Below, piece after piece: positions 52,407 through 64,000 of a stretch of 64,000 nucleotides of DNA. Below the pieces are notes generated by a model. It saw only the letters and a list, made by a program, of their open reading frames with translations, had not been told where the DNA came from and did no database searches. This DNA is from Streptomyces sp. H27-H1 (GTDB lineage: Bacteria; Actinomycetota; Actinomycetes; Streptomycetales; Streptomycetaceae). Made by a program: the position numbers and the translations under genes. Each line of letters opens with the position of its first letter. The first letter of the stretch is position 1. The stretch lies in NCBI RefSeq assembly GCF_026627445.1, contig NZ_JAPNLJ010000019.1, positions 62,001-126,000 of the forward strand, written 5' to 3'.

Positions 52407-53249
52407 ATGGCCCAAGTCGTCCGCGCCGCACTCGTCCAGGCCACCTGGACCGGAGACACCGAGTCGATGATCGCCAAACACGAGGAGCACGCCCGCCGGG
52501 CCGCCGCCCAGGGTGCGCGGATCATCGGCTTCCAGGAGGTGTTCAACGCCCCCTACTTCTGCCAGGTCCAGGAGCCCGAGCACTACCGCTGGGCCGAGGC
52601 CGTCCCCGACGGTCCCACCGTCCAGCGCATGCAGGCCCTCGCCCGCGAGACCGGCATGGTGATCGTCGTACCGGTCTTCGAGCTGGAGTCCGAGGGCTTC
52701 TACTACAACACCGCCGCGGTCATCGACGCCGACGGCAGCTATCTCGGCAAGTACCGCAAGCACCACATCCCCCAAGTCAGGGGATTCTGGGAGAAGTACT
52801 ACTTCCGCCCGGGCAACCTCGGCTGGCCCGTCTTCGACACCGCCGTCGGCCGGATCGGCGTCTACATCTGCTACGACCGCCACTTCCCGGAAGGCTGGCG
52901 TGAACTGGGCCTGGCCGGTGCCCAGTTGGTGTACAACCCGTCCGCGACCTCCCGTGGCCTGTCCTCGTACCTGTGGCAGCTGGAGCAGCCCGCCTCCGCC
53001 GTCGCCAACGAGTACTTCGTCGCCGCCATCAACCGCGTCGGCCAAGAGGAGTACGGCGACAACGACTTCTACGGCACCAGCTACTTCGTCGACCCGCGCG
53101 GGCAGTTCGTCGGGGAGGTCGCCAGCGACAAGGAGGAAGAGCTCCTCGTGCGCGACCTCGACTTCGACCTCATCAAGGAGGTCCGCGAGCAGTGGGCCTT
53201 CTACCGCGACCGGCGTCCCGACGCCTACGGAGGACTCGTACAGCCGTGA
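52407..53249 (+). CDS. Nitrilase-superfamily amidohydrolase, beta-ureidopropionase-like
   Basis: The ATG at 52407 has GAGGAG 6 nt upstream. The 280-residue enzyme has the Glu44 (GFQEVFNAPYFCQ), Lys118 (KYRKHHIP) and Cys155 (YICYDRHFPEG) triad. It resembles N-carbamoyl-beta-alanine amidohydrolase, which hydrolyses the open-ring pyrimidine product to beta-alanine, CO2 and ammonia. The dihydropyrimidinase two genes on makes this assignment coherent. It overlaps the aminotransferase by GTGA. Confidence 0.9.
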   Translation: MAQVVRAALVQATWTGDTESMIAKHEEHARRAAAQGARIIGFQEVFNAPYFCQVQEPEHYRWAEAVPDGPTVQRMQALARETGMVIVVPVFELESEGFYYNTAAVIDADGSYLGKYRKHHIPQVRGFWEKYYFRPGNLGWPVFDTAVGRIGVYICYDRHFPEGWRELGLAGAQLVYNPSATSRGLSSYLWQLEQPASAVANEYFVAAINRVGQEEYGDNDFYGTSYFVDPRGQFVGEVASDKEEELLVRDLDFDLIKEVREQWAFYRDRRPDAYGGLVQP

Positions 53250-54541
53250 CCAACCCGATCCCCCTGCACAGCCGGCACCGCTCCGTCCTGCCCGAATGGC
53301 TGGCGCTCTACTACGACCGCCCCATCGAGCTCACCCATGGCGAGGGCCGCCACGTCTGGGACGCCGACGGCAATCGCTACCTCGACTTCTTCGGCGGCAT
53401 CCTCACCACGATGACCGCCCACGCCCTGCCCGAGGTGACCAAGGCCGTCGCCGAACAGGCCGGGCGGATCATCCACTCCTCCACCCTCTACCTCAACCGC
53501 CCGATGGTCGAACTGGCCGAGCGCGTCTCGGCGTTGTCCGGCATCCCCGACGCCAGGGTCTTCTTCACCACCTCCGGCACCGAGGCCAACGACACCGCCC
53601 TGCTGCTCGCGACGACGTACCGCCGCTCCAACCAGATCCTGGCGATGCGCAACAGCTACCACGGTCGGTCCTTCTCCACCGTCTCGATCACCGGCAACCG
53701 GGGCTGGTCCCCGACCAGTCTCTCGCCGCTCCAGACCTACTACGTCCACGGCGCGGTCCGCACTCGAGGCCCCTTCGCGCACCTGAACGACGCCGACTTC
53801 ACCGCCGCCGCCGTCGCCGACCTGGAAGACGTACTCGGCCAGGCACGCGGCGGGGTCGCCGCACTCATCGCCGAACCGGTGCAGGGTGTGGGCGGGTTCA
53901 CCTCTCCGCCCGACGGGCTCTACGGTGCCTTCCGCGAGGTCCTCGACCGCCACGGCATCCTCTGGATCAGCGACGAGGTGCAGACCGGCTGGGGCCGTAC
54001 CGGCGACCACTTCTGGGGCTGGCAGGCCCACGCCCAGAACGGCCCGCCGGACATCATCACCTTCGCCAAGGGCATCGGCAACGGCATGTCCATCGGCGGA
54101 GTCGTGGCCCGCTCCGAGGTGATGAACTGCCTCGACTCCAACTCCATCTCCACCTTCGGCGGTTCACCGGTCACCATGGCCGCCGGCGTCGCCAACCTCG
54201 GGTACCTCCTCGAACACGACCTCCAGGGCAACGCCCGCCGCGTCGGCGGCCTGCTGCTGGAGCGGCTGCGGGCCGTCTGCGCGAGCGTGCCCGCCGTGCG
54301 GGAGGTACGCGGCCGGGGCCTGATGGCCGGCCTGGAGCTGACGAAGCCCGGCACCGACCAGGCCGACCCGGACGCGGCCGCGGCCGTACTGGAAGCCGCC
54401 CGGACCGGCGGCCTGCTGCTCGGCAAGGGCGGCGGCCACAACACCAGCGTGCTGCGCATCGCGCCGCCGCTCTCCCTCACCGTCGCCGAGGCGGAAGAGG
54501 GAGCCGAGATCCTCGCCGAGGCCCTCCGCATCCTCAACTAG
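53246..54541 (+). CDS. Class III PLP aminotransferase (beta-alanine/AGXT2-like)
   Basis: The 431-residue enzyme has the class III signatures TSGTEANDTALLLAT, LIAEPVQGVGG, WISDEVQTGWGRTG and the PLP lysine in TFAKGIGNGMSIG. In the pyrimidine operon it would transaminate beta-alanine or 3-aminoisobutyrate with pyruvate or glyoxylate. The preceding gene overlaps by GTGA and dihydropyrimidinase follows after 17 bp. Confidence 0.9.
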   Translation: MTNPIPLHSRHRSVLPEWLALYYDRPIELTHGEGRHVWDADGNRYLDFFGGILTTMTAHALPEVTKAVAEQAGRIIHSSTLYLNRPMVELAERVSALSGIPDARVFFTTSGTEANDTALLLATTYRRSNQILAMRNSYHGRSFSTVSITGNRGWSPTSLSPLQTYYVHGAVRTRGPFAHLNDADFTAAAVADLEDVLGQARGGVAALIAEPVQGVGGFTSPPDGLYGAFREVLDRHGILWISDEVQTGWGRTGDHFWGWQAHAQNGPPDIITFAKGIGNGMSIGGVVARSEVMNCLDSNSISTFGGSPVTMAAGVANLGYLLEHDLQGNARRVGGLLLERLRAVCASVPAVREVRGRGLMAGLELTKPGTDQADPDAAAAVLEAARTGGLLLGKGGGHNTSVLRIAPPLSLTVAEAEEGAEILAEALRILN

Positions 54542-54558
54542 CACGGGGGAAGACGTAC

Positions 54559-55959
54559 ATGAGCATCCGCACCCTCATCCGCGGCGGCCTCGTCATCACG
54601 GCCGCCGACGAGCTCCACGCCGACGTGCTGATCGAGGACGGCCGGGTCGCCGCCCTCGCGGCACACGGCACGGCGGCCGCCGGAACCTGGACGGCCGACC
54701 GGACGATCGACGCGAGCGGGAAGTACGTCATCCCCGGCGGGGTCGACGCCCACACCCACATGGAGCTGCCCTTCGGCGGCACCGCCGCCTCCGACACCTT
54801 CGAAACCGGGACCCGGGCCGCCGCCTGGGGCGGCACCACCACCATCGTGGACTTCGCCGTGCAGACGCCGGGGCACGCCCTGCGCGAGGGCCTGGACGCC
54901 TGGTACGCCAAGGCCGACGGCCAGTGCGCCGTCGACTACGCCTTCCACATGATCCTCTCGGACGTCCACGAGGGCACCCTGAAGGAGATGGACCACCTGG
55001 TGGGGGAGGGGATCACCTCCTTCAAGCTGTTCATGGCGTACCCCGGGGTCTTCTACAGCGACGACGGGCAGATCCTGCGCGCGATGCAGCGGGCGTCGGG
55101 CAACGGCGGGCTGATCATGATGCACGCGGAGAACGGCATCGCGATCGACGTGCTCGTCGAACAGGCCCTGGCGCGCGGGGAGACCGATCCCCGTCACCAC
55201 GGCGAGGTCCGCAAGGTGCTGCTGGAGGCGGAGGCCACCCACCGGGCGATCCAGCTGGCGCGGGTGGCGGGCGCCCCGCTGTACGTGGTCCACGTATCGG
55301 CGGAGGAGGCCGTCGCGGAGCTGGCGCTTGCCCGGGACAAGGGCTTGCCGGTCTTCGGTGAAACCTGCCCGCAGTACCTGTTCCTGTCCACCGACAACCT
55401 CGAAGAGCCGGACTTCCAGGGCGCCAAGTACGTGTGCTCCACCCCGTTGCGCCCCCGCGAGCACCAGGCGGCGCTGTGGCGGGGCCTGCGCACGAACGAC
55501 CTCCAGGTGGTTTCCACGGACCACTGCCCGTTCTGTTTCCGCGGTCAGAAGGAGCTGGGCCGCGGGGACTTCTCGAAGATCCCGAATGGCCTGCCGGGCG
55601 TGGAGAACCGCATGGACCTCCTCCACCAGGCGGTCCTGGACGGGCACATCAGCCGCCGGCGCTGGATCGAGATCGCGTGCGCGACCCCGGCCCGGATGTT
55701 CGGGCTCTACCCGCAGAAGGGCACGATCGCGCCGGGTTCCGATGCCGACATCGTCCTCTATGATCCGCATGCCGAGCAGGTCATCTCCGCCGAGACGCAC
55801 CACATGAACGTGGACTACTCGGCGTACGAGGGCAAGCGGATCACCGGACGCGTCGACACGGTCCTCTCGCGCGGCGAACTCGTCATCGACCAGCGCGAGT
55901 ACACCGGCCGGGCCGGCCACGGGGCCTTCATCCCCCGCTCCACCTGTCAGTACCTGTAA
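54559..55959 (+). CDS. hydA: Dihydropyrimidinase (hydantoinase)
   Basis: The 466-residue cyclic amidohydrolase has the metal-binding GGVDAHTHMELPFGG, the carboxylated Lys in TSFKLFMAYPG, His ligands in MMHAEN and YVVHVSAEEA, and Asp in STDHCPF. It opens dihydrouracil or dihydrothymine to N-carbamoyl-beta-amino acids, the substrate of the first gene of the operon. The frame extends leftward past 54559 without meaning; GGGGGA precedes this ATG. Confidence 0.93.
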   Translation: MSIRTLIRGGLVITAADELHADVLIEDGRVAALAAHGTAAAGTWTADRTIDASGKYVIPGGVDAHTHMELPFGGTAASDTFETGTRAAAWGGTTTIVDFAVQTPGHALREGLDAWYAKADGQCAVDYAFHMILSDVHEGTLKEMDHLVGEGITSFKLFMAYPGVFYSDDGQILRAMQRASGNGGLIMMHAENGIAIDVLVEQALARGETDPRHHGEVRKVLLEAEATHRAIQLARVAGAPLYVVHVSAEEAVAELALARDKGLPVFGETCPQYLFLSTDNLEEPDFQGAKYVCSTPLRPREHQAALWRGLRTNDLQVVSTDHCPFCFRGQKELGRGDFSKIPNGLPGVENRMDLLHQAVLDGHISRRRWIEIACATPARMFGLYPQKGTIAPGSDADIVLYDPHAEQVISAETHHMNVDYSAYEGKRITGRVDTVLSRGELVIDQREYTGRAGHGAFIPRSTCQYL

Positions 55960-55989
55960 GCAAGGCTGTGCTCAATCTAAGGACACGCG

Positions 55990-56988
55990 ATGGACTTCGG
56001 CCTCGTCCTGCAGACCGACCCGCCCGCCTCGCAGGTCGTCAGCCTCATGAAGCGCGGCGAACGCAACGGCTTCCGCTACGGCTGGACCTTCGACTCCGCC
56101 GTGCTGTGGCAGGAACCGTTCGTCATCTACAGCCAGATCCTGGCCAACACGCAGCGCATGCACGTCGGTCCGATGGTCACCAACCCGGGCACCCGCACCT
56201 GGGAGGTGACCGCCTCCACCTTCGCCACCCTCAACGACATGTACGGCAACCGCACCGTCTGCGGGATCGGCCGCGGGGACTCGGCGATGCGGGTCGCGGG
56301 CCGGGCCCCCAACACCCTGGCACGGCTCGGGGAGGCCATCGAGGTGATCCGGGATCTGGCGGAGGGCCGTGAGGCGGTCGTGGACGGCAACCCGATCCGG
56401 ATCCCCTGGATCACGGACGGGAAGCTGCCCGTCTGGATGGCCGCGTACGGGCCCAAGGCCCTCGCGCTCGCCGGGCAGAAGGCCGACGGGTTCATCCTTC
56501 AGCTCGCCGACCTCTACCTCACCGAGTGGATGATCAAGGCGGTCCGCCAGGCCGCCGTGGAGGCCGGCCGCGACCCCGACTCGATCACCATCTGCGTAGC
56601 GGCCCCGGCGTACGTGGGGGACGATCTCGCGCACGCCCGCGACCAGTGCCGCTGGTTCGGCGGCATGGTCGGCAATCACGTCGCCGACCTGGTCTCCCGC
56701 TACGGCGAGCACTCCTCGATGGTCCCGGACGAGCTCACGGAGTACGTCAAATCCCGCCAGGGCTACGACTACAGCCACCACGGCCGCACCGGGAATCCCT
56801 CGGCCGACTTCGTCCCCGACGAGATCGTCGACCGCTTCTGCCTGCTGGGTCCGGCCGAGGCCCACATCGAGAAGCTCCGGGCACTGCGCGATCTCGGCGT
56901 CGACCAGTTCGCCCTCTACAACATGCACGACGCCCGTGAAGCGACCATCGACGCGTACGGATCCGACGTCATCCCGTTGTTCAGCTGA
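55990..56988 (+). CDS. LLM-class F420-dependent oxidoreductase (TIGR03842-like)
   Basis: The 332-residue TIM-barrel protein has F420/luciferase-type blocks TFDSAVLWQEPFV, MVTNPGTRTWEVTAS, GIGRGDSAMR, WMAAYGPKALALAGQKADG. AAGGA precedes the ATG. It follows hydA by 30 bp and completes the operon. I recall this subfamily being linked to dihydropyrimidinase genes. No dihydropyrimidine dehydrogenase is present nearby, so it may perform that redox step with F420 (inference). Confidence 0.85.
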   Translation: MDFGLVLQTDPPASQVVSLMKRGERNGFRYGWTFDSAVLWQEPFVIYSQILANTQRMHVGPMVTNPGTRTWEVTASTFATLNDMYGNRTVCGIGRGDSAMRVAGRAPNTLARLGEAIEVIRDLAEGREAVVDGNPIRIPWITDGKLPVWMAAYGPKALALAGQKADGFILQLADLYLTEWMIKAVRQAAVEAGRDPDSITICVAAPAYVGDDLAHARDQCRWFGGMVGNHVADLVSRYGEHSSMVPDELTEYVKSRQGYDYSHHGRTGNPSADFVPDEIVDRFCLLGPAEAHIEKLRALRDLGVDQFALYNMHDAREATIDAYGSDVIPLFS

Positions 56989-57283: not shown

Positions 57284-58717
57284 ATGGCAACCGTCAATCC
57301 CCTGCGTTGGTGGGCACTTGCCGTGCTCGCCACCGCGCAGTTCATGGTCATCATGGACACCTCGATCATCGGGGTGGCACTCCCCGAGATGCAGAAGGAC
57401 CTCGGCTTCTCGCAGGGCGAGCTGCAGTGGGTCTTCAACGCCTACGTCATCGTCTTCGGCGGACTGCTCCTGCTCGGCGGTCGACTCTCCGACCTGGTCG
57501 GAGCCCGCAAGATCTTCGCCGCCGGCTGGGCGACCATGATCGTCGGCTCGATCGTCGCCGCTGCCGCGCAGACGGCCACGGTCGAGATCGTCGGCCGCGC
57601 TGTCCAGGGCGTCGGTGGCGCGCTCATCGCACCCGCCGCCATGACCCTGTTGATGATGCTCTTCATGCACGACCCGAAGGAGCTCGGCAAGGCGATGGCG
57701 CTGTACGGCGCCGCTGCTCCCGCCGGTGGCACCGCGGGCGTGTTCCTGGGTGGTGTCTTCACCGAGTGGATGAGCTGGCAGTGGGTCTTCATCATCTACA
57801 TCCCGATCGGTCTCGCGACCCTCGCCGCGACCAGGCTGCTGCCCGCCGTCGCGTCCCGTCGCGGTTCCGTGGACGTCCTGGGCGCGGTCGCGGTCACCGC
57901 GGGCCTGGCGCTCGCCGTGTTCGCCGTCGTCCGCGCGCCCGAAGTGGGCTGGGGCTCCACCGCGACCGTCCTCGAGCTGATCGGCGCCGTCGTCCTGCTC
58001 GTCGTCTTCTTCCTGATCCAGAAGTCCATCCGCGAGCCGCTCATGCCGCTCAGCGTCTGGCGCGTGCCGCGTCTCGGCTCGGCCAACCTGGCGATGACGC
58101 TGCTCGGCGCCGCGTGGATCCCGATGTGGTACTTCCTCAACCTCTACCTGCAGCAGGTGCTGAACTACGGGGCCTTCGCCTCCGGCGCCGCGCTGCTCCC
58201 CATGACCGTCCTGCTGATGATCTTCATGACGGCGATCACCAGCCGCCTCATGGGCAGGTTCGGCGCGAAGCCGCTGATCGTCGCAGGGCTTCTGGCCCTC
58301 TCGGCCGGGCTGGTCTGGCTGTCGGCCGTGGAGCCGACCGGCACCTTCCTGGTCGACGTCCTGCCGGCCTCGCTCGTTGCCGCCCTCGGCATGGCGCTGG
58401 CCTACATTCCCGCGATGATCGCCGCCATGTCCGGCGCCCCCCAGGAGCAGGCGGGTCTGGCCTCGGGCATCGTCAACACGACGTACAACGTGGGCTCGGC
58501 CCTGGGTCTGGCCGCCCTGACCGCTCTTGCCACCACGCAGGGCGCCGGTGAGCTGGGCGACCTGCCCGCCCTCACCGATGGCTTCAGTGCCGCGTTCCTC
58601 GCCGCCGCCGCCATCGCGGCCGCGGGCGCCGTGATCACCCTTCTCGTGATGAAGGGGGACCGGGCGGCGGCGCCAGCAGCCGCCCCCGCGCCGCAGAGCG
58701 AGACCGCCGGGGTGTGA
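57284..58717 (+). CDS. DHA2-family MFS efflux transporter (EmrB/QacA type)
   Basis: The 477-residue protein has about 14 membrane helices. Signatures: motif D1-like FMVIMDTSIIGVALPEMQ, GGRLSDLVGARKIF (motif A), VQGVGGALIAPAAMT (motif B) and GGTAGVFLGGVFTEW (motif C, antiporter). Such pumps expel drugs, dyes or electrophiles by proton antiport. Two CsoR-like sites upstream suggest induction by a metal or reactive sulfur/aldehyde rather than by an antibiotic (inference). Confidence 0.9.
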   Translation: MATVNPLRWWALAVLATAQFMVIMDTSIIGVALPEMQKDLGFSQGELQWVFNAYVIVFGGLLLLGGRLSDLVGARKIFAAGWATMIVGSIVAAAAQTATVEIVGRAVQGVGGALIAPAAMTLLMMLFMHDPKELGKAMALYGAAAPAGGTAGVFLGGVFTEWMSWQWVFIIYIPIGLATLAATRLLPAVASRRGSVDVLGAVAVTAGLALAVFAVVRAPEVGWGSTATVLELIGAVVLLVVFFLIQKSIREPLMPLSVWRVPRLGSANLAMTLLGAAWIPMWYFLNLYLQQVLNYGAFASGAALLPMTVLLMIFMTAITSRLMGRFGAKPLIVAGLLALSAGLVWLSAVEPTGTFLVDVLPASLVAALGMALAYIPAMIAAMSGAPQEQAGLASGIVNTTYNVGSALGLAALTALATTQGAGELGDLPALTDGFSAAFLAAAAIAAAGAVITLLVMKGDRAAAPAAAPAPQSETAGV

Positions 58718-58895: not shown

Positions 58896-60080
58896 ATGGA
58901 AGACATCCGAACCCGTGCCGTACACGTCGTGAACCAGCCTCCGGCCCGGGGGAGCCGGCCCCTCTCCGTTCCTCTGGTGCAGTCGTCCGCCTTCGCCTTC
59001 GACTCCGCGAGCGAGCTCGCCGAAGCCATGGCCGGCCCGGACGGCCAGTACGTCTACAGCCGCCGGGGCAATCCCACGGTCCGCGCCCTGGAGCACACGC
59101 TGGCCGGCCTGGAGGGCGGTGCTTCGGCGATCGCCTTCGCCTCCGGGATGGGGGCCATCAGCGGCGTCCTGCTGGCGCTCCTGCGTCCGGGTGATCACGT
59201 CGTGGCGCAGCGGTGTCTCTACGGAGGGACGTACGCCTCCCTGACCGACCTGGCGGACCGGTACGGCATCGAGGTCACGTACGTCAGCGGCGACGAAGTG
59301 GTGGAGTTCGAGGCGGCGGCCGGTCCCCGGACCCGGCTGCTCGTCATGGAGACCATCGCGAACCCGACTGGCCAAGTCCCCGATCTGCCAGGCCTGTTGG
59401 CTGCCGCCCGACGCCGGAACGTCATCAGCGCCGTGGACAACTCCCTCGCGTCACCCGTCCTGTGCCGCCCCATCGAACTCGGCGCCGACATCGTGCTCCA
59501 CTCCACGACCAAGTACCTGGCCGGACACTCCGACGTCCTCGGCGGGGCGGCCGTCTTCGCGGACGACGGGCTGCGGCAGGAGATATGGCCGCGGACGGTC
59601 GAACTCGGTTCCACCCCGGACCCGTTCGCCGCCTGGTTGACCCTGCGGGGGATACCGACGCTGCCCCTGCGGATGCGTGAGCACTGCGCCAACGCCGACG
59701 TGCTGGCCGGCCGGCTGGCCGCTCATCCCGCCGTCACGGCCATCCACTGGCCCTGGCTCCCCGCCCACCCCTCGTACGCCGTCGCACGCAAGGTGCTCTC
59801 CGGTGGGGGAGGGCTGCTCTCCTTCGAGCTCGCCGGAGGCCGGGAGGCGGGAAGGGCGTTCGTGGAGGGCGTGCGGCTGGCACGGCTCGCGCTGTCGCTG
59901 GGCGGGGTGGAGACGCTGGTGACGCATCCGGCCAGTACCTCGCACCGGGAGCTGGGCGCGGCGGCGTTGGCCGCAGCGGGGATCGGGGCGGGCCTGGTGC
60001 GGATGTCCGTAGGCATCGAGGACCCCGAAGACCTGTGGCGCGACGTCGAACAGGCCCTGTCCGGCGTTGTTTTGGGTTGA
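58896..60080 (+). CDS. Cys/Met-metabolism PLP enzyme (cystathionine synthase/lyase-like)
   Basis: The ATG at 58896 follows AGGAG at 6-nt spacing and gives 394 residues. Family motifs: YSRRGNPTVRALE, FASGMGAISG, NPTGQVPDLPGL, Asp181 and the PLP lysine Lys206 in HSTTKYLAGHSDVLGG, then SLGGVETLVTHPAS. It acts on a homoserine- or cysteine-type substrate by gamma- or beta-elimination or replacement. It stands between the MFS terminator and the N-oxygenase operon promoter. Its stop codon overlaps that promoter's -35 box, so it may belong functionally to the same pathway. Confidence 0.9.
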   Translation: MEDIRTRAVHVVNQPPARGSRPLSVPLVQSSAFAFDSASELAEAMAGPDGQYVYSRRGNPTVRALEHTLAGLEGGASAIAFASGMGAISGVLLALLRPGDHVVAQRCLYGGTYASLTDLADRYGIEVTYVSGDEVVEFEAAAGPRTRLLVMETIANPTGQVPDLPGLLAAARRRNVISAVDNSLASPVLCRPIELGADIVLHSTTKYLAGHSDVLGGAAVFADDGLRQEIWPRTVELGSTPDPFAAWLTLRGIPTLPLRMREHCANADVLAGRLAAHPAVTAIHWPWLPAHPSYAVARKVLSGGGGLLSFELAGGREAGRAFVEGVRLARLALSLGGVETLVTHPASTSHRELGAAALAAAGIGAGLVRMSVGIEDPEDLWRDVEQALSGVVLG

Positions 60081-60112
60081 CAAAATAAATGAACCATTCG
60101 TAGATTGGTTCA
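60077..60112 (+). promoter_or_regulatory. Strong promoter with internal palindrome for the N-oxygenase operon
   Basis: -35 TTGACA (60077-60082), 18-bp spacer, -10 TAGATT (60101-60106). The palindrome TGAACCA-N9-TGGTTCA (60090-60112) overlaps the spacer and the -10, the layout of a repressor operator. The AT-rich stretch stands out from its surroundings. Predicted start near 60113. Confidence 0.65.
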
Positions 60113-60151
60113 CGCCAAGGAATCACTGCTCTACGTCAAAAGGGGCGCACG

Positions 60152-60673
60152 ATGCGGTACTTCGAGGACTTCCGGACCGGTGACGTCCACGAGCTGGGCA
60201 CGGTCACCGTCACCGTTGAGGAGGTGCTGGAATTCGGTAGGCGCTTCGACCCGCAGCCCTTCCACACGGACCCGGTGCTCGCCGCCGGTTCGCCGTTCGG
60301 CGGCCTGATCGCCAGTGGCTGGCACACCGCCTCGATGTTCATGAGGCGCTACGTCGACGGGTTGCTGGTCCACAGCGCGTGCACCGGTTCCCCCGGGGTC
60401 GACGAGATCCGCTACGTGCGCCCCGTGCGCCCGGGGGACGTCCTCACCGCCCGAGTGGAGATCCTCGGATCCCGCCCGTCGCCGTTCAACTCGAGCACCG
60501 GCATCGTGCAGCCCAAGTGCCTTCTGCTCGACCGCGACGGGGCGGTCGTCTTCAGCATGATCCTGCACAGCATCTTCGAGCGCAGGCCCGCCGGTGCCGT
60601 TGCCGACGCCCCGTGTTCCGGGACGAAGTCCGCCGCCGAGGATCCGGTCCCGTGCGTGCGAGCCATGGCCTGA
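60152..60673 (+). CDS. MaoC-like dehydratase (hot-dog fold)
   Basis: The 173-residue product has AGGGG 6 nt before the ATG. It carries the hydratase-2 signature DPQPFHTDPVLAAGSPFGGL followed by ASGWHTASM (catalytic Asp/His). It would hydrate or dehydrate an acyl-CoA or acyl-carrier-protein thioester. First gene of the predicted biosynthetic operon. Confidence 0.87.
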   Translation: MRYFEDFRTGDVHELGTVTVTVEEVLEFGRRFDPQPFHTDPVLAAGSPFGGLIASGWHTASMFMRRYVDGLLVHSACTGSPGVDEIRYVRPVRPGDVLTARVEILGSRPSPFNSSTGIVQPKCLLLDRDGAVVFSMILHSIFERRPAGAVADAPCSGTKSAAEDPVPCVRAMA

Positions 60674-60748
60674 CCACCCCGGCGCGAGACCACCTCGAAC
60701 CCCGCGACCGTCCGTACCCATCCCACCCGATGTGAAGGGAGACCTCCT

Positions 60749-61588
60749 GTGGAGGCCGTATCCCGAACCGCCCAGTGGACCGCCGCAGCGCGAGCCCTGG
60801 AGACCGACCGAGAGGACCGGCTGTTCGCCGATCCCTACGCACGCACCGTCGCCGACGACATCGGCTTCGAACTCCTGGAGCGCTACGCCGGGGCCGGCAC
60901 CGTACCGTTCCTCGCCATCCGCACCACCTACCTGGACCGGGCCGTCGTACGGGCCGTCGAGGAACACGGCATCCGCCAGATCGTTTTCCTCGCCGCCGGC
61001 ATGGACACCCGCTTCTACCGGCTCCCCTGGCCCGAGGGCGTCACCGTCTACGAGCTGGACCGCCCCGCGCTGCTGGAGGCGAAGGCGCGGATGCTCGCCG
61101 ACGAACCCGCTCCCGCCGGGCGCAGCCGCGTCACCGTCCCCGTGGACCTCACGCAGGACTGGACCGGTCCGCTCAAGGAGGCCGGCTGGCGCAGTGACGA
61201 GCCGGTGCTGTGGGTGGTCGAGGGGCTCCTCTTCTTCCTCCCCGAGGGCGCCGTGCGCAACCTGATCTCGACCCTGGCCGTGCACTCCGCGCCCGACTCG
61301 GTGCTGCTCGGAGACGTCATCAGCAGGGCCGCCCTGATGAACCCCCTCTCCCGCCCCTTCCTGAACTGCCTCGCCGAAGACGGCAACCCCTGGCTGTTCG
61401 GCACGGAAACCCCCGAGCAACTGCTCGCCGAGTGCGGGTGGGAAGTCCGCGAGGTGCGGCAGCCGGGCGAGCCGGGCGCCGACTTCGGCCGCTGGCCGTA
61501 CCCGGTTCCGCCGCGCAGTGTCCCGGGCGTTCCCCGCTCGTTCCTGTTCACCTGCGACCTTCCGGGCTCCGAGGAGGTGGCGGCATGA
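60749..61588 (+). CDS. SAM-dependent methyltransferase, Ppm1/LCMT family
   Basis: The GTG at 60749 has GAAGGGA 8 nt upstream. The 279-residue product shows the Mycobacterium/Streptomyces Tcmp/LCMT blocks: RTAQWTAAARALETDRED, LFADPYARTVA, TTYLDRAVV, VFLAAGMDTRFYRL, VYELDRPALLEAK and EGLLFFLPEG. Members of this class methylate carboxyl or hydroxyl groups, including in natural products. Its stop overlaps the next methyltransferase start (ATGA). Confidence 0.88.
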   Translation: MEAVSRTAQWTAAARALETDREDRLFADPYARTVADDIGFELLERYAGAGTVPFLAIRTTYLDRAVVRAVEEHGIRQIVFLAAGMDTRFYRLPWPEGVTVYELDRPALLEAKARMLADEPAPAGRSRVTVPVDLTQDWTGPLKEAGWRSDEPVLWVVEGLLFFLPEGAVRNLISTLAVHSAPDSVLLGDVISRAALMNPLSRPFLNCLAEDGNPWLFGTETPEQLLAECGWEVREVRQPGEPGADFGRWPYPVPPRSVPGVPRSFLFTCDLPGSEEVAA

Positions 61589-62631
61589 GCGGCACGCACG
61601 AGTTCCACCAGCGCGTCATCAGCGATGCGGGAGCGGCCGTACGCGGGCTCACCGTCGCCCTCGGCGAGCGGCTCGGCCTGTACCGTGCGCTGGCCGAGGA
61701 CGGCCCCCTCACCGCGGCCGGGCTCGCGGTGCGCACCGGGATCGCCGAGCGGTACGCGCAGGAGTGGCTGCACGCCCAGCTGAGCGCCGGGTACGTCGAG
61801 CGCCACCCGAGCGCCGACACGTACACGCTGCCCGCCGACCACGTGCCCGTACTCGCCGACCCGGACGCCGTCACCTTCGCCGCCGGATTCTTCACCGCCC
61901 TCAAGGCCCTCTACGCAACCGAGGACCTGCTCGTCGACGCGTACCGCTCCGGCGACGGCGTCGGCTGGGCGGAACACGATCCGGCACTGGACACCGGGAT
62001 GGGAAGCTTCTTCCAGCCCACCTACCAGCACCGGCTCGTCCCCGACTGGCTGCCCGCCCTCCACGGGGTCACCGGCAAACTCCACGCCGGCGGCGCCGTC
62101 GCCGACGTGGGCTGCGGAGTCGGGCACACCACGCTGCTCATCGCCAGGGCATTCCCCGAGGCGACCGTGCACGGCTTCGACTACTCCGAGGAAGCCATCT
62201 CCATCGCCCGGCAGCTCGCCGAGGACGCCGGACTCGGCGACCGCGTCGTCTTCGACGTCGCCGCGGCCGACGACTACCCCGGCTCCGGCTACGACCTCGT
62301 CACCTTCTTCAACGCCCTGCACGACATGGGCGACCCCGTCGCCGCCGCGCAGCACGTGCACAAGTCCCTGGACGCCGAGGGGACGTGGATGCTCGTCGAG
62401 TCCAACGTCTCGCCCGCCGACATCGATACGCAGACACCCGCCGCCCGCATGTTCATGGCGCTGTCCGCCGTGATGTGCCTGCCCGTGGCCGTCGCCCAGC
62501 GGGGCCCTCACGCGCTCGGCAACCACTCCGGCGAGCAGGCGTTCCGCGCGATCGCGCAGGAGGCCGGCTTCACCCGCTGGCGGCGCGCGACAGAGACCCC
62601 GGTCAACGCCGTCTACGAAGTCCGGCCCTGA
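61585..62631 (+). CDS. Class I SAM methyltransferase with N-terminal winged helix
   Basis: The 348-residue protein has an N-terminal winged-helix-like dimerisation domain (10-85; ERLGLYRALAEDGPLTAAGL) and a Rossmann methyltransferase core (VADVGCGVGHTTLLIARAFP near 172-191, FDYSEEAIS, FFNALHDMGD). It resembles Rv2258c-like enzymes. A second methyltransferase in the operon implies two methylations, or one methylation plus a SAM-binding regulatory role. Confidence 0.88.
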   Translation: MSGTHEFHQRVISDAGAAVRGLTVALGERLGLYRALAEDGPLTAAGLAVRTGIAERYAQEWLHAQLSAGYVERHPSADTYTLPADHVPVLADPDAVTFAAGFFTALKALYATEDLLVDAYRSGDGVGWAEHDPALDTGMGSFFQPTYQHRLVPDWLPALHGVTGKLHAGGAVADVGCGVGHTTLLIARAFPEATVHGFDYSEEAISIARQLAEDAGLGDRVVFDVAAADDYPGSGYDLVTFFNALHDMGDPVAAAQHVHKSLDAEGTWMLVESNVSPADIDTQTPAARMFMALSAVMCLPVAVAQRGPHALGNHSGEQAFRAIAQEAGFTRWRRATETPVNAVYEVRP

Positions 62632-62673
62632 CCGCGCGTCCGCCGCGCCCACCACCACACCGAGGGAGTCTCC

Positions 62674-63567
62674 ATGGGCCTCGCCGCCCCCCTGCCCGTC
62701 AGTGACCGGTTCCTGGAAGTCCTGGAACGGCTCAGCTCGCGCTCCATCGAGGAGTACTACAACCCGTACCAGCAGTTCGACTGGCCCGAGAAGCTCGAAG
62801 AGGGCCGGCTCTGGATGACCCCCGAGCTGCTCACCGTCTACGGCACCCCCTTCTACGAGGAGCTCGGCGAGGAGACCATCCACCGCCTCTCCAAGTGGGA
62901 GAGCATCAACTTCTACAGCCTCAACGTGCACGGCATCCGTGAGCTGCTCATCGAGGTGGTCGGCCGGATCCACATGCCCGGCTTCGAAGTACCCTCCGAC
63001 TTCTTCCACCACTTCATCGGCGAAGAGAACGAACACATGTGGTTCTTCGCCGAGTTCTGCCGCCGCTACGGCGACAAGATCTACGGCTCGACCGCCATGC
63101 GCGCCGACTCCGCGTGGGAACCGGATGTGGAGAACTTCCTGGTCTTCGCCCGGATCCTGTTCTTCGAGGAACTCGTCGACCACTACAACACGAGGATGGC
63201 GCGGGACGAGTCCCTGTGCCACACCATCCGCGAGGTCAACCGCATCCACCACCAGGACGAGTCACGGCACATCGCCTTCGGGCGCGAGCTGGTCTCCCTG
63301 CTGTTCAAGCGGATGCGGGACACGGTGTCCGTGCAGCGGCTCGCCGAAGTGGAGGCGTACCTCAAGCGGTACGTCGTCTACAGCGTCAACTCCCTCTACA
63401 ACCCGCACGTGTACCGCGACGCCGGCATCGCCGACCCGCTGGCACTGCGCAACGCGCTGGTCGCCGACGAGGGACGCCGTCCGTACGAGCGCAAGGCCAT
63501 CCGCAAACCGCTCGGCTTCTTCCTTAAGGCCGGGATCTTCACCGATGACGTCCTGCCCGTCGTCTGA
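62674..63567 (+). CDS. AurF/CmlI-type diiron N-oxygenase
   Basis: The 297-residue product has GAGGGA before the ATG. The carboxylate-bridged diiron ligands match the AurF pattern: a Glu in helix 1 (Glu76 or Glu90), Glu118-x-x-His121 (EENEHMWFF), Glu165 (FFEELVDHY), and His192-x3-Glu196-x2-His199 (HHQDESRH). AurF and CmlI oxidise amines to nitro groups. Relatives make nitroso, hydroxylamine or azoxy products. The substrate is not predictable, but the ligase-like gene downstream suggests a carrier-bound amino acid. Confidence 0.88.
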   Translation: MGLAAPLPVSDRFLEVLERLSSRSIEEYYNPYQQFDWPEKLEEGRLWMTPELLTVYGTPFYEELGEETIHRLSKWESINFYSLNVHGIRELLIEVVGRIHMPGFEVPSDFFHHFIGEENEHMWFFAEFCRRYGDKIYGSTAMRADSAWEPDVENFLVFARILFFEELVDHYNTRMARDESLCHTIREVNRIHHQDESRHIAFGRELVSLLFKRMRDTVSVQRLAEVEAYLKRYVVYSVNSLYNPHVYRDAGIADPLALRNALVADEGRRPYERKAIRKPLGFFLKAGIFTDDVLPVV

Positions 63568-63601
63568 ACGAGCCGTCCGTCGTCCGAGAGGTGACTCCAC
63601 C

Positions 63602-64000
63602 ATGACCGTGACAACCCATGCGAGCGTCGGGGAGACGAGGGGCCTGCCGTCCCTCGGACCCGAGGGGACCGCCCTGCTGCGGCTCCTCGACGACACCTTC
63701 GAGGGCTGGGGCGTGAGCGCGGGCGCCCGCCCGATGACCATGCCCCCGCTGCTGCTGGCATCCGACCTGGCCCGGCTCGACTACTACGACAACTTCCCCC
63801 ACCAGGCCGTCGTCGCGGCCCCGCTCGACCTGGCGGCAAGGGAGACCAGCGAGTTCTGTACGGACAGCGGTTGCTTCCCCTGCACCGCCCTCCAGCCGGC
63901 AGCGCTCGGACTCCCGTCCGCGTCCTGCTACGCCGTCTACATCGACCATCAGGGCCGCCAGGTCGCGGACGACACCCTGGTCACCGTTGTCGGCTGGTGC
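63602..64000 (+). CDS. Class II aaRS-like amino acid:carrier-protein ligase, N-terminal part
   Basis: The gene is cut by the window end after 133 codons. GAGAGG precedes the ATG. The visible part (LLRLLDDTFEGWGVSAGA, then DYYDNFPHQAVVAAPLDL, and CYAVYIDHQGR before VTVVGWC) follows the order of the truncated seryl-tRNA-synthetase-like enzymes that activate Gly or Ala and load it on a carrier protein. The Cys near the motif-2 start fits their zinc site. The active site lies outside the window, so the call is provisional. Confidence 0.55.
   Translation, partial: MTVTTHASVGETRGLPSLGPEGTALLRLLDDTFEGWGVSAGARPMTMPPLLLASDLARLDYYDNFPHQAVVAAPLDLAARETSEFCTDSGCFPCTALQPAALGLPSASCYAVYIDHQGRQVADDTLVTVVGWC

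Follow-up and report, generated by a model that had tools for sequence, protein, structure and literature searches.

What is made by a gene cluster that sets an AurF/CmlI-type diiron oxygenase beside an aminoacyl-tRNA synthetase (aaRS)-like ligase, a MaoC-like dehydratase, and two methyltransferases? The question is raised by a 64,000-nucleotide stretch (the window), positions 62001–126000 of contig C87 of an 8.9-Mb Streptomyces genome, which we followed to the contig end at 149427. A sequence-only reading of the window had placed these five genes in a tight operon at 60077–64000 and had proposed that they form an undescribed pathway. All five were found with the domains assigned to them, and they do belong to an operon, but that span opens 75 bases ahead of the start codon of MaoC, and the operon itself extends well beyond it in both directions (Table 1).

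The cluster is real and conserved, and it joins a known nitronate core to a new combination of genes that includes a possible mycothiol sulfur module. Our favored reading, which we hold tentatively, is that this is a small-molecule biosynthetic cluster built around an enteromycin-like glycine-nitronate cassette, with a mycothiol-dependent sulfur step leading to a thiohydroximate. Its observed basis is gene content, active-site residues, folds, and co-inheritance. The nitronate part of the pathway is likely, and the sulfur step, drawn from co-inheritance and a modeled fold, is put forward as a hypothesis.

The Diiron Oxygenase, the Ligase, and the Carrier Protein

The window oxygenase is of the AurF type and has the complete Glu/His ligand set that had been claimed for it, the first Glu being placed by alignment only. 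Seven residues (E76, E118-x2-H121, E165, and H192-x3-E196-x2-H199) were invariant in each of three alignments, which held 25 sequences (the window protein and 24 others), 9 sequences (including another PF11583 protein of the host), and 24 sequences (the window protein and those of 23 loci from named genomes). The spacings E118-3-H121 and E165-27-H192-4-E196-3-H199 are the same as in the AurF relative Dob3, whose ligands are given as E137/H140, E198, H225, E229, and H232 (PMC13061610; papers cited by PMC number are cited for the passages available to us). E76, assigned by its invariance and its place in the alignment, lies 42 residues before E118, compared with 36 in Dob3. PDB searches with the oxygenase, by profile and by single sequence, did not find AurF, nor did a search that started from a different PF11583 protein encoded by the host, so we compared folds instead. 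The predicted structure (pLDDT 88.1) was closest to CmlI (5hyh, Z 21.2), followed by AurF (2jcd, Z 20.0) and ribonucleotide reductase R2 (16.5).

By sequence, the ligase has a class-II core that includes motifs 2 and 3 and a presumed Zn-ligand triad. It groups with the amino acid:[carrier protein] ligases, its profile matching Bll0957 of Bradyrhizobium (3mey/4h2s, E 1.4e-46), and motif 2 (CFRxE), motif 3 (AFGLERW), C109, E153, and C250 are conserved across 19 sequences. We take the motifs and the metal triad to have their usual roles, with Cys131/Glu176/Cys279 as the presumed counterparts in Bll0957. By its score against the NF005479 equivalog model (125.8 bits, short of the cut-off of 357), the ligase is a distant branch and not an equivalog of that group. 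The free-standing carrier protein that was to be looked for to the right of 64000 is present there: an acyl carrier protein (ACP) with a phosphopantetheine serine in a DSL motif lies beside the ligase and a phosphopantetheinyl transferase (PPTase). This ACP had no match in a Pfam scan of the 18 cluster proteins (E up to 0.01). Glycine is most likely the amino acid loaded, to judge from the ligase family and the published pathway discussed below.

The Cassette Is Shared with Enteromycin-Type Loci

From 30 oxygenase matches with at least 36% identity we fetched 28 neighborhoods, leaving out G017 and G102. The AurF-like oxygenase, the ligase, and the ACP occurred together in 27 of the 28; the exception, L054, had no ACP match. 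Among the named loci, for which we took the best 80 of 280 and scored gene presence in 10-kb flanks (subject to contig ends and to score thresholds that we set), the three genes co-occurred in 79 and the LCM methyltransferase was present in 76. The two sets overlap (L071 is G004, L099 is G003, L115 is G076, L121 is G060, and L136 is G056). The host genome has three further PF11583 matches in two loci, neither of which shows oxygenase, ligase, and ACP matches together. That a stand-alone aaRS-like ligase and an ACP accompany the oxygenase nearly everywhere we looked is a new observation. The same module also lies beside large multidomain open reading frames (ORFs) in L042 (AMP-binding plus carrier domain) and L048 (a BLAST relative), and near a tryptophan-halogenase-like gene in L046; these neighbors suggest that it may serve several product types.

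The cassette is present in S. achromogenes NRRL B-2120 (L125), which is related to NRRL 3125, the organism that makes enteromycin, and in S. albireticuli NRRL B1670 (L130), which is known as an enteromycin producer. Compared with the window, the oxygenases of these loci are 61% identical, the ligases 52 and 49%, and the LCM methyltransferases 54 and 49%. A 2021 study by He and Ryan reportedly deals with the glycine-nitronate chemistry of enteromycin carboxamide. In S. achromogenes var. streptozoticus NRRL 3125, O-methylation of a nitronate is on the route to enteromycin (PMC11035981), and the same is stated for enteromycin carboxamide (PMC9967187). As far as the core is concerned, the pathway is therefore not undescribed, its chemistry having been published in 2021 (cited in PMC9967187 and used in PMC11035981); the whole set is nevertheless unusual because of its mycothiol-type genes, its S-adenosylmethionine (SAM) cycle, and its MetRS-like gene. 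The anatomy of the cluster and its kinship with the enteromycin-type cassette support the earlier suggestion that an amino acid is held on a carrier, N-oxidized, and O-methylated. Among the N-oxidation products that had been listed, the nitro/nitronate level is favored over hydroxylamine or azoxy products. VlmA/VlmH-like genes, raised as possible neighbors, were not seen (there was no GNAT or flavin-monooxygenase Pfam match among the 18 cluster proteins), and valanimycin/azoxy-type chemistry was set aside on that ground.

The title of the He and Ryan study (as given in PMC9967187) names O-methylation and denitrification as two fates of glycine nitronates, and the second fate is also described in PMC11035981. 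The nitronate could be denitrified to a glyoxylyl-carrier unit, N-oxygenation being only a route to that aldehyde. A sister cassette, L041, has what that branch would need, a nitronate monooxygenase gene (PF03060, 113.5 bits) adjoining the ligase, and no LCM methyltransferase was found in its stretch. The 18 cluster proteins gave no nitronate monooxygenase Pfam match and include a methyltransferase instead, and we regard denitrification as very improbable in this cluster.

We built a tree from the LCM methyltransferase alone, blind to the sulfur-type genes described below. It held the window protein and those of 16 sulfur-type and 16 other loci, hand-picked from the 76 loci with an LCM gene, and as outgroup the proteins of 27 of 30 Streptomyces paralogue loci (L188, L194, and L198 gave no match at E 1e-5). 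The 33 cluster proteins, including those of the window, L125, and L130, formed one clade (97/100) separate from the 27 paralogues, among which long branches were flagged. The LCM methyltransferase is also the sole PF04072 match in the host genome. From L125 and L130 we infer that the published nitronate O-methyltransferase is of the LCM type.

One Branch of the Cassette Carries Putative Sulfur-Handling Genes

Three further genes of the cluster encode a protein resembling mycothiol-dependent maleylpyruvate isomerase (MDMPI), a PIG-L protein, and a pyridoxal phosphate (PLP) enzyme of the Cys/Met type. This trio is complete in all seven genomes in which the whole cluster was read (the host's own, G074, G038, G004, G009, G015, and G076) and also in L090, L094, L103 (Solihabitans), L105 (Lentzea), and L108. 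In 51 of the 80 named loci we found one or more of these genes; among the 29 others, L064 is a locus of the window's own type on a truncated S. katrae contig. As the two classes are defined by the trio itself, their contrast in these three genes is no evidence. In the methyltransferase tree, the rows labeled as having at least one trio gene formed one subclade (97/94), together with a single unlabeled row. The label required 2 changes, compared with a shuffle mean of 15.1, and a count as low was reached in 0 of 500 shuffles, a test in which close relatives by themselves make labels cluster. One branch of the cassette thus carries MDMPI-like, PIG-L, and PLP genes, often with SAM-recycling genes as well, which is likewise new. 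In Streptomyces sp. HNM0574 (NZ_JAASAH010000001), an enteromycin-type locus (L132) and a sulfur-type locus (L090) lie side by side on one contig, with their oxygenases about 12 kb apart.

The MDMPI-like protein is assigned by sequence to the mycothiol-dependent DinB/MDMPI family (TIGR03083 over cut-off). A PDB profile search with its alignment gave no credible match. A model of the S. lavendulae orthologue had as its best fold match mycothiol-dependent maleylpyruvate isomerase itself (2nsg) over its whole length of 198 residues, with a Z of 11.5 that lies in the cautionary range for helical bundles. The PIG-L protein scored 27.9 against the Mca model TIGR03446, for which the cut-off is 277.15.

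The PLP gene and the second methyltransferase gene sit in the operon and are co-inherited: both were present in 44 of the 80 named loci, one alone in 2 and 2, and neither in 32, and two of the four single-gene loci (L064 and L132) end within the cluster. The nearest PDB entries to the PLP enzyme were methionine gamma-lyases (E 1e-123), and it fell under the cut-off of every NCBIfam model among the best 25 of 51. Both the lysine of TKY and the arginine of VRM are retained in it, presumably with the roles they have in related enzymes, and Gly (YGGT) stands at what is presumably the position of the special Cys of methionine gamma-lyase. These residues also suit an enzyme that forms a C-C or C-N bond, in which the nitronate carbon would attack a vinylglycine unit derived from an O-acylhomoserine or SAM, by a Fub7-like gamma-replacement. 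The product, an amino-nitro acid, would be isomerized by the MDMPI, PrpF, and MaoC enzymes. The family includes gamma-synthases and, among the PDB matches, FUB7. Such a route leaves the PIG-L protein unexplained, as well as the five loci with MDMPI-like and PIG-L genes and no PLP gene (L100, L107, L110, L113, and L114), and we think it quite unlikely.

A Proposed Pathway and Its Weighing

In the favored reading, the ligase would adenylate an amino acid (glycine is the likeliest candidate) and load it onto the stand-alone ACP, made holo by the PPTase of the cluster. The diiron oxygenase would then take the carrier-bound amine to the nitro/nitronate level, and the LCM methyltransferase would O-methylate the nitronate, with SAM regenerated by the products of the metK, adenosine-kinase-like, metH, and ahcY genes. 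Such a set of SAM-cycle genes suits a pathway with a high demand for methyl groups. In the hypothetical fourth step, the MDMPI-like protein would bring the sulfur of mycothiol onto the electrophilic carbon of the nitronate, expelling methanol or water, the PIG-L protein would trim the mycothiol conjugate, the PLP enzyme would cleave the C-S bond to leave an ACP-bound thiohydroximate, and the second methyltransferase would S-methylate it. The thiol step has a chemical precedent in the thiohydroxamate adduct formed between a nitronate and an enzyme cysteine (PMC11035981). Finally, AsnB, the PrpF-like protein, the short-chain dehydrogenase/reductase (SDR), and the MetRS-like protein would convert the unit to the final product. 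AsnB and the MetRS-like protein are likely amide formers, and SbzA provides a precedent for an aaRS-like transferase (PMC6331615).

Several observations weigh against this reading. Among the 51 trio-positive loci, the MDMPI-like gene was found in 26 and the PIG-L gene in 10, counts in which many flanks stop earlier, and because the sulfur-type loci are mostly close Streptomyces kin, the counts are not independent. L104 lies inside the sulfur subclade of the methyltransferase tree yet has none of the trio in its flanks. L090 and L094 lack metK, metH, and ahcY in their 10-kb flanks, G038 lacks AsnB, PrpF, and SDR, and the five loci named above have MDMPI-like and PIG-L genes but no PLP gene. The PIG-L gene is on the opposite strand, and its block, with the genes from AsnB to the MetRS-like protein, lies about 28 kb (G004) or 16 kb (G015) beyond the MDMPI-like gene. 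The PIG-L protein is nearer to LnmX (its nearest relative) and to chitobiose deacetylases than to Mca or MshB. The fold match of the MDMPI model was tied with that of the DinB-fold protein 5cof (11.4, 129 residues), and the self-resistance protein ClbS is also close (Z 10.8). With Gly in place of the special Cys, methionine is an unlikely substrate for the PLP enzyme, and beta-elimination and gamma-replacement are indistinguishable by sequence. In the nitronate part, the LCM type of the published O-methyltransferase is derived from L125 and L130, and the glycine substrate from the ligase family and the published pathway.

Some of these points suit a rival explanation, in which an enteromycin-like O-methyl nitronate is kept, the role of the mycothiol-type genes is confined to shielding the producer from this electrophile or recycling its adducts, and AsnB and the MetRS-like protein form amides. 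The likeness to ClbS and the distance of PIG-L from the core in two genomes are in line with it, and the oxygenase, ligase, ACP, PPTase, and LCM methyltransferase are common to enteromycin-type loci. Some of these loci also have metK (L120, L124, and L125), metK and the kinase (L164, the continuation of L120), or the kinase (L168), and L164 and L168 have an AsnB relative (31–32% identity). However, 28 cassette loci, including L125 and L130 and with L064 set aside, have none of the trio in their 10-kb flanks (a weak and distant match to PIG-L, at 33%, is present in L119). The electrophile by itself therefore does not seem to call for the trio. The PLP and second methyltransferase genes, which lie in the operon and are inherited jointly, also speak against this explanation. 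On balance, we consider it rather unlikely that the methyl nitronate is simply retained.

An extension of the favored reading is that the cluster is an actinobacterial counterpart of the glucosinolate core, evolved independently, in which a glycine nitronate is O-methylated, captured by mycothiol, and left after trimming and cleavage as a carrier-bound thiohydroximate, with a new family of S-methyl thiohydroximate or thiohydroxamate products in dozens of Streptomyces genomes. We regard this as doubtful, and the displaced PIG-L block and the trio-defined classes made us slightly less confident of it and of the favored reading alike. The locus connects the glycine nitronate, a known but rare group, with many gene clusters, and it yields a testable hypothesis for how bacteria could insert sulfur at a carbon that bears an oxidized nitrogen. 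Should the sulfur step be real, it would parallel glucosinolate chemistry by convergence and extend the list of antibiotic pathways that draw their sulfur from mycothiol.

An EamA transporter gene and one for an FAD/NAD-binding_9 protein (Pfam on L107) are common to four of the PLP-free loci (L107, L110, L113, and L114), and L110, L113, and L114 also have a PCC-domain protein (Pfam on L110). These MDMPI-like/PIG-L clusters are possibly another sulfur-handling branch.

Limits and Layout of the Cluster

The genes from MaoC through the PPTase are spaced by −29 to +75 bases. In this genome no stop codon separates the PPTase and ACP frames, although the ACP gene has a separate ATG preceded by an AAGGAG-like sequence. 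We counted the PLP enzyme and the MFS transporter into the cluster on the basis of their conservation across close genomes; the MFS gene has an 82–96% identical counterpart at the same position in 7 of 7. The cluster ends on the right before an mshA-like gene.

Table 1. Genes of the conserved cluster. Coordinates beyond 64000 continue the window numbering; add 62000 for positions on contig C87.
Feature	Position	Strand	Evidence or remark
MFS transporter, left edge of conserved cluster	57284..58717	+	assigned by eye
Cys/Met-metabolism PLP enzyme, proposed C-S lyase	58896..60080	+	PF01053 398.9 bits
MaoC-like hot-dog dehydratase	60152..60673	+	PF01575 57.9 bits
LCM/TIGR00027 methyltransferase, proposed nitronate O-methyltransferase	60749..61588	+	PF04072 157.1 bits; TIGR00027 213.4, above cut-off
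Second SAM methyltransferase, Rv2258c-like winged helix, proposed S-methyltransferase	61585..62631	+	PF13847 70.4, PF21320 51.3 bits
AurF/CmlI-fold diiron oxygenase	62674..63567	+	PF11583 124.1 bits vs cut-off 29.6
Class-II aaRS-like amino acid:[carrier protein] ligase	63602..64462 (window holds 63602..64000; 462 bases beyond)	+	Bll0957 profile match
PPTase	64434-64991		PF01648 37.2 bits; start codon choice provisional
Free-standing ACP, 84 aa	64992-65246		serine in LIDSLSF (DSL motif)
MetK	65243-66457		PF02773 231.1 bits
PfkB, adenosine-kinase-like	66459-67442		PF00294 150.6 bits
MetH	67439-70894		PF02574 and four more Pfam domains
AhcY	70954-72360		PF05221 502.4 bits
MDMPI-like (DinB/MDMPI family, mycothiol-dependent type)	72366-73031		TIGR03083 82.3 bits, cut-off 50
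PIG-L	73083-73886	−	PF02585 92.5 bits
AsnB	73941-75767		PF00733 217.9 bits
PrpF-like	75784-76692		PF04303 55.7 bits
SDR	76762-77562		PF00106 100.8 bits
MetRS-like	77594-79171		PF09334 183.3 bits; PDB 9l8v/9vq4 E about 6e-63

The PfkB protein is presumably an adenosine kinase, from its likeness to Rv2202c. The host genome has two metK genes, one in the cluster and the other on contig C99, and G004 has a metF-like frame (by eye) placed between metH and ahcY. In the genome of S. lavendulae CCM 3239 (G203), ahcY gave three nearly full-length matches, of which one (G203:C2:222327-223727, 92% identical) is on a second contig, and the extra copies hint at another SAM-cycle cluster.

The mshA-like glycosyltransferase gene (79303-80637, by eye) lies 3′ of the MetRS-like gene and is at the same place in all six close genomes that reach there (G074, G038, G004, G009, G015, and G076); it may reflect a link to mycothiol supply or mere synteny. 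To the left, beta-ureidopropionase-, class-III aminotransferase-, dihydropyrimidinase-, and LLM oxidoreductase-like ORFs (52407-56988, by eye) were placed outside the cluster because they had no match beside the cluster in the 97%-identical G074.

Comparison with Known Systems

In the open-licence literature, a scope outside which most subscription papers lie, we found no paper on this gene set. The enteromycin carboxamide cassette, homologous to those of L125 and L130, has in common with it the diiron oxygenase, the carrier protein, and the methyltransferase; the MaoC, second methyltransferase, PLP, MDMPI-like, PIG-L, metH, ahcY, PrpF-like, SDR, and MetRS-like genes are extra here. The ligase shares with the Bll0957 ligases (3mey) a class-II SerRS-like core, CFRxE, the Cys/Glu/Cys triad, and an adjoining free carrier, but it is about 60 residues shorter than the 346-residue PDB chains and lies within a secondary-metabolite cluster.

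SbzA is a tRNA-synthetase-like aminoacyl transferase, a class-I aaRS homologue with modified signature motifs that is encoded in a biosynthetic cluster (PMC6331615). The protein studied here is MetRS-like, not IleRS-like, and for its closest PDB entries, 9l8v and 9vq4, no publication was found by entry code. Hydrazine formation by a cupin-MetRS of the Spb40 type was rejected, as none of the 18 cluster proteins gave a cupin match, and the MetRS paralogues described in PMC2922099 were set aside as cupin-linked. We also set aside the lipothrenin cluster, in which an AurF-type enzyme belongs to a different gene set (PMC10616846), and the diazo-forming oxygenase Dob3, which acts on a hydrazone whose biosynthetic genes were not seen in our cluster (PMC13061610).

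The proposed sulfur step has its closest likenesses in two systems. In lincomycin biosynthesis, the methyltransferase is LmbG. LmbV has the zinc-site residues of MDMPI and LmbE is 32.4% identical to Mca (PMC4351081), and these two and the PLP enzyme LmbF take part in sulfur handling (PMC4351081, PMC5518657, PMC11794154). As in this mycothiol route, a DinB/MDMPI-family protein, a PIG-L/LmbE-family protein, a PLP enzyme, and a methyltransferase are encoded in one cluster, but here the PIG-L protein falls into the LnmX/chitobiose-deacetylase branch, the PLP enzyme comes from the Cys/Met family, and the proposed acceptor is a nitronate instead of a sugar. For the plant glucosinolates, the likeness is one of proposed logic, from an aci-nitro compound through a thiol conjugate and a C-S lyase to a thiohydroximate, which is the course of the glucosinolate core. 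The route proposed here would differ in its use of carrier-bound glycine, of a diiron oxygenase in place of a P450, and of mycothiol in place of glutathione, and the resemblance would be convergent.

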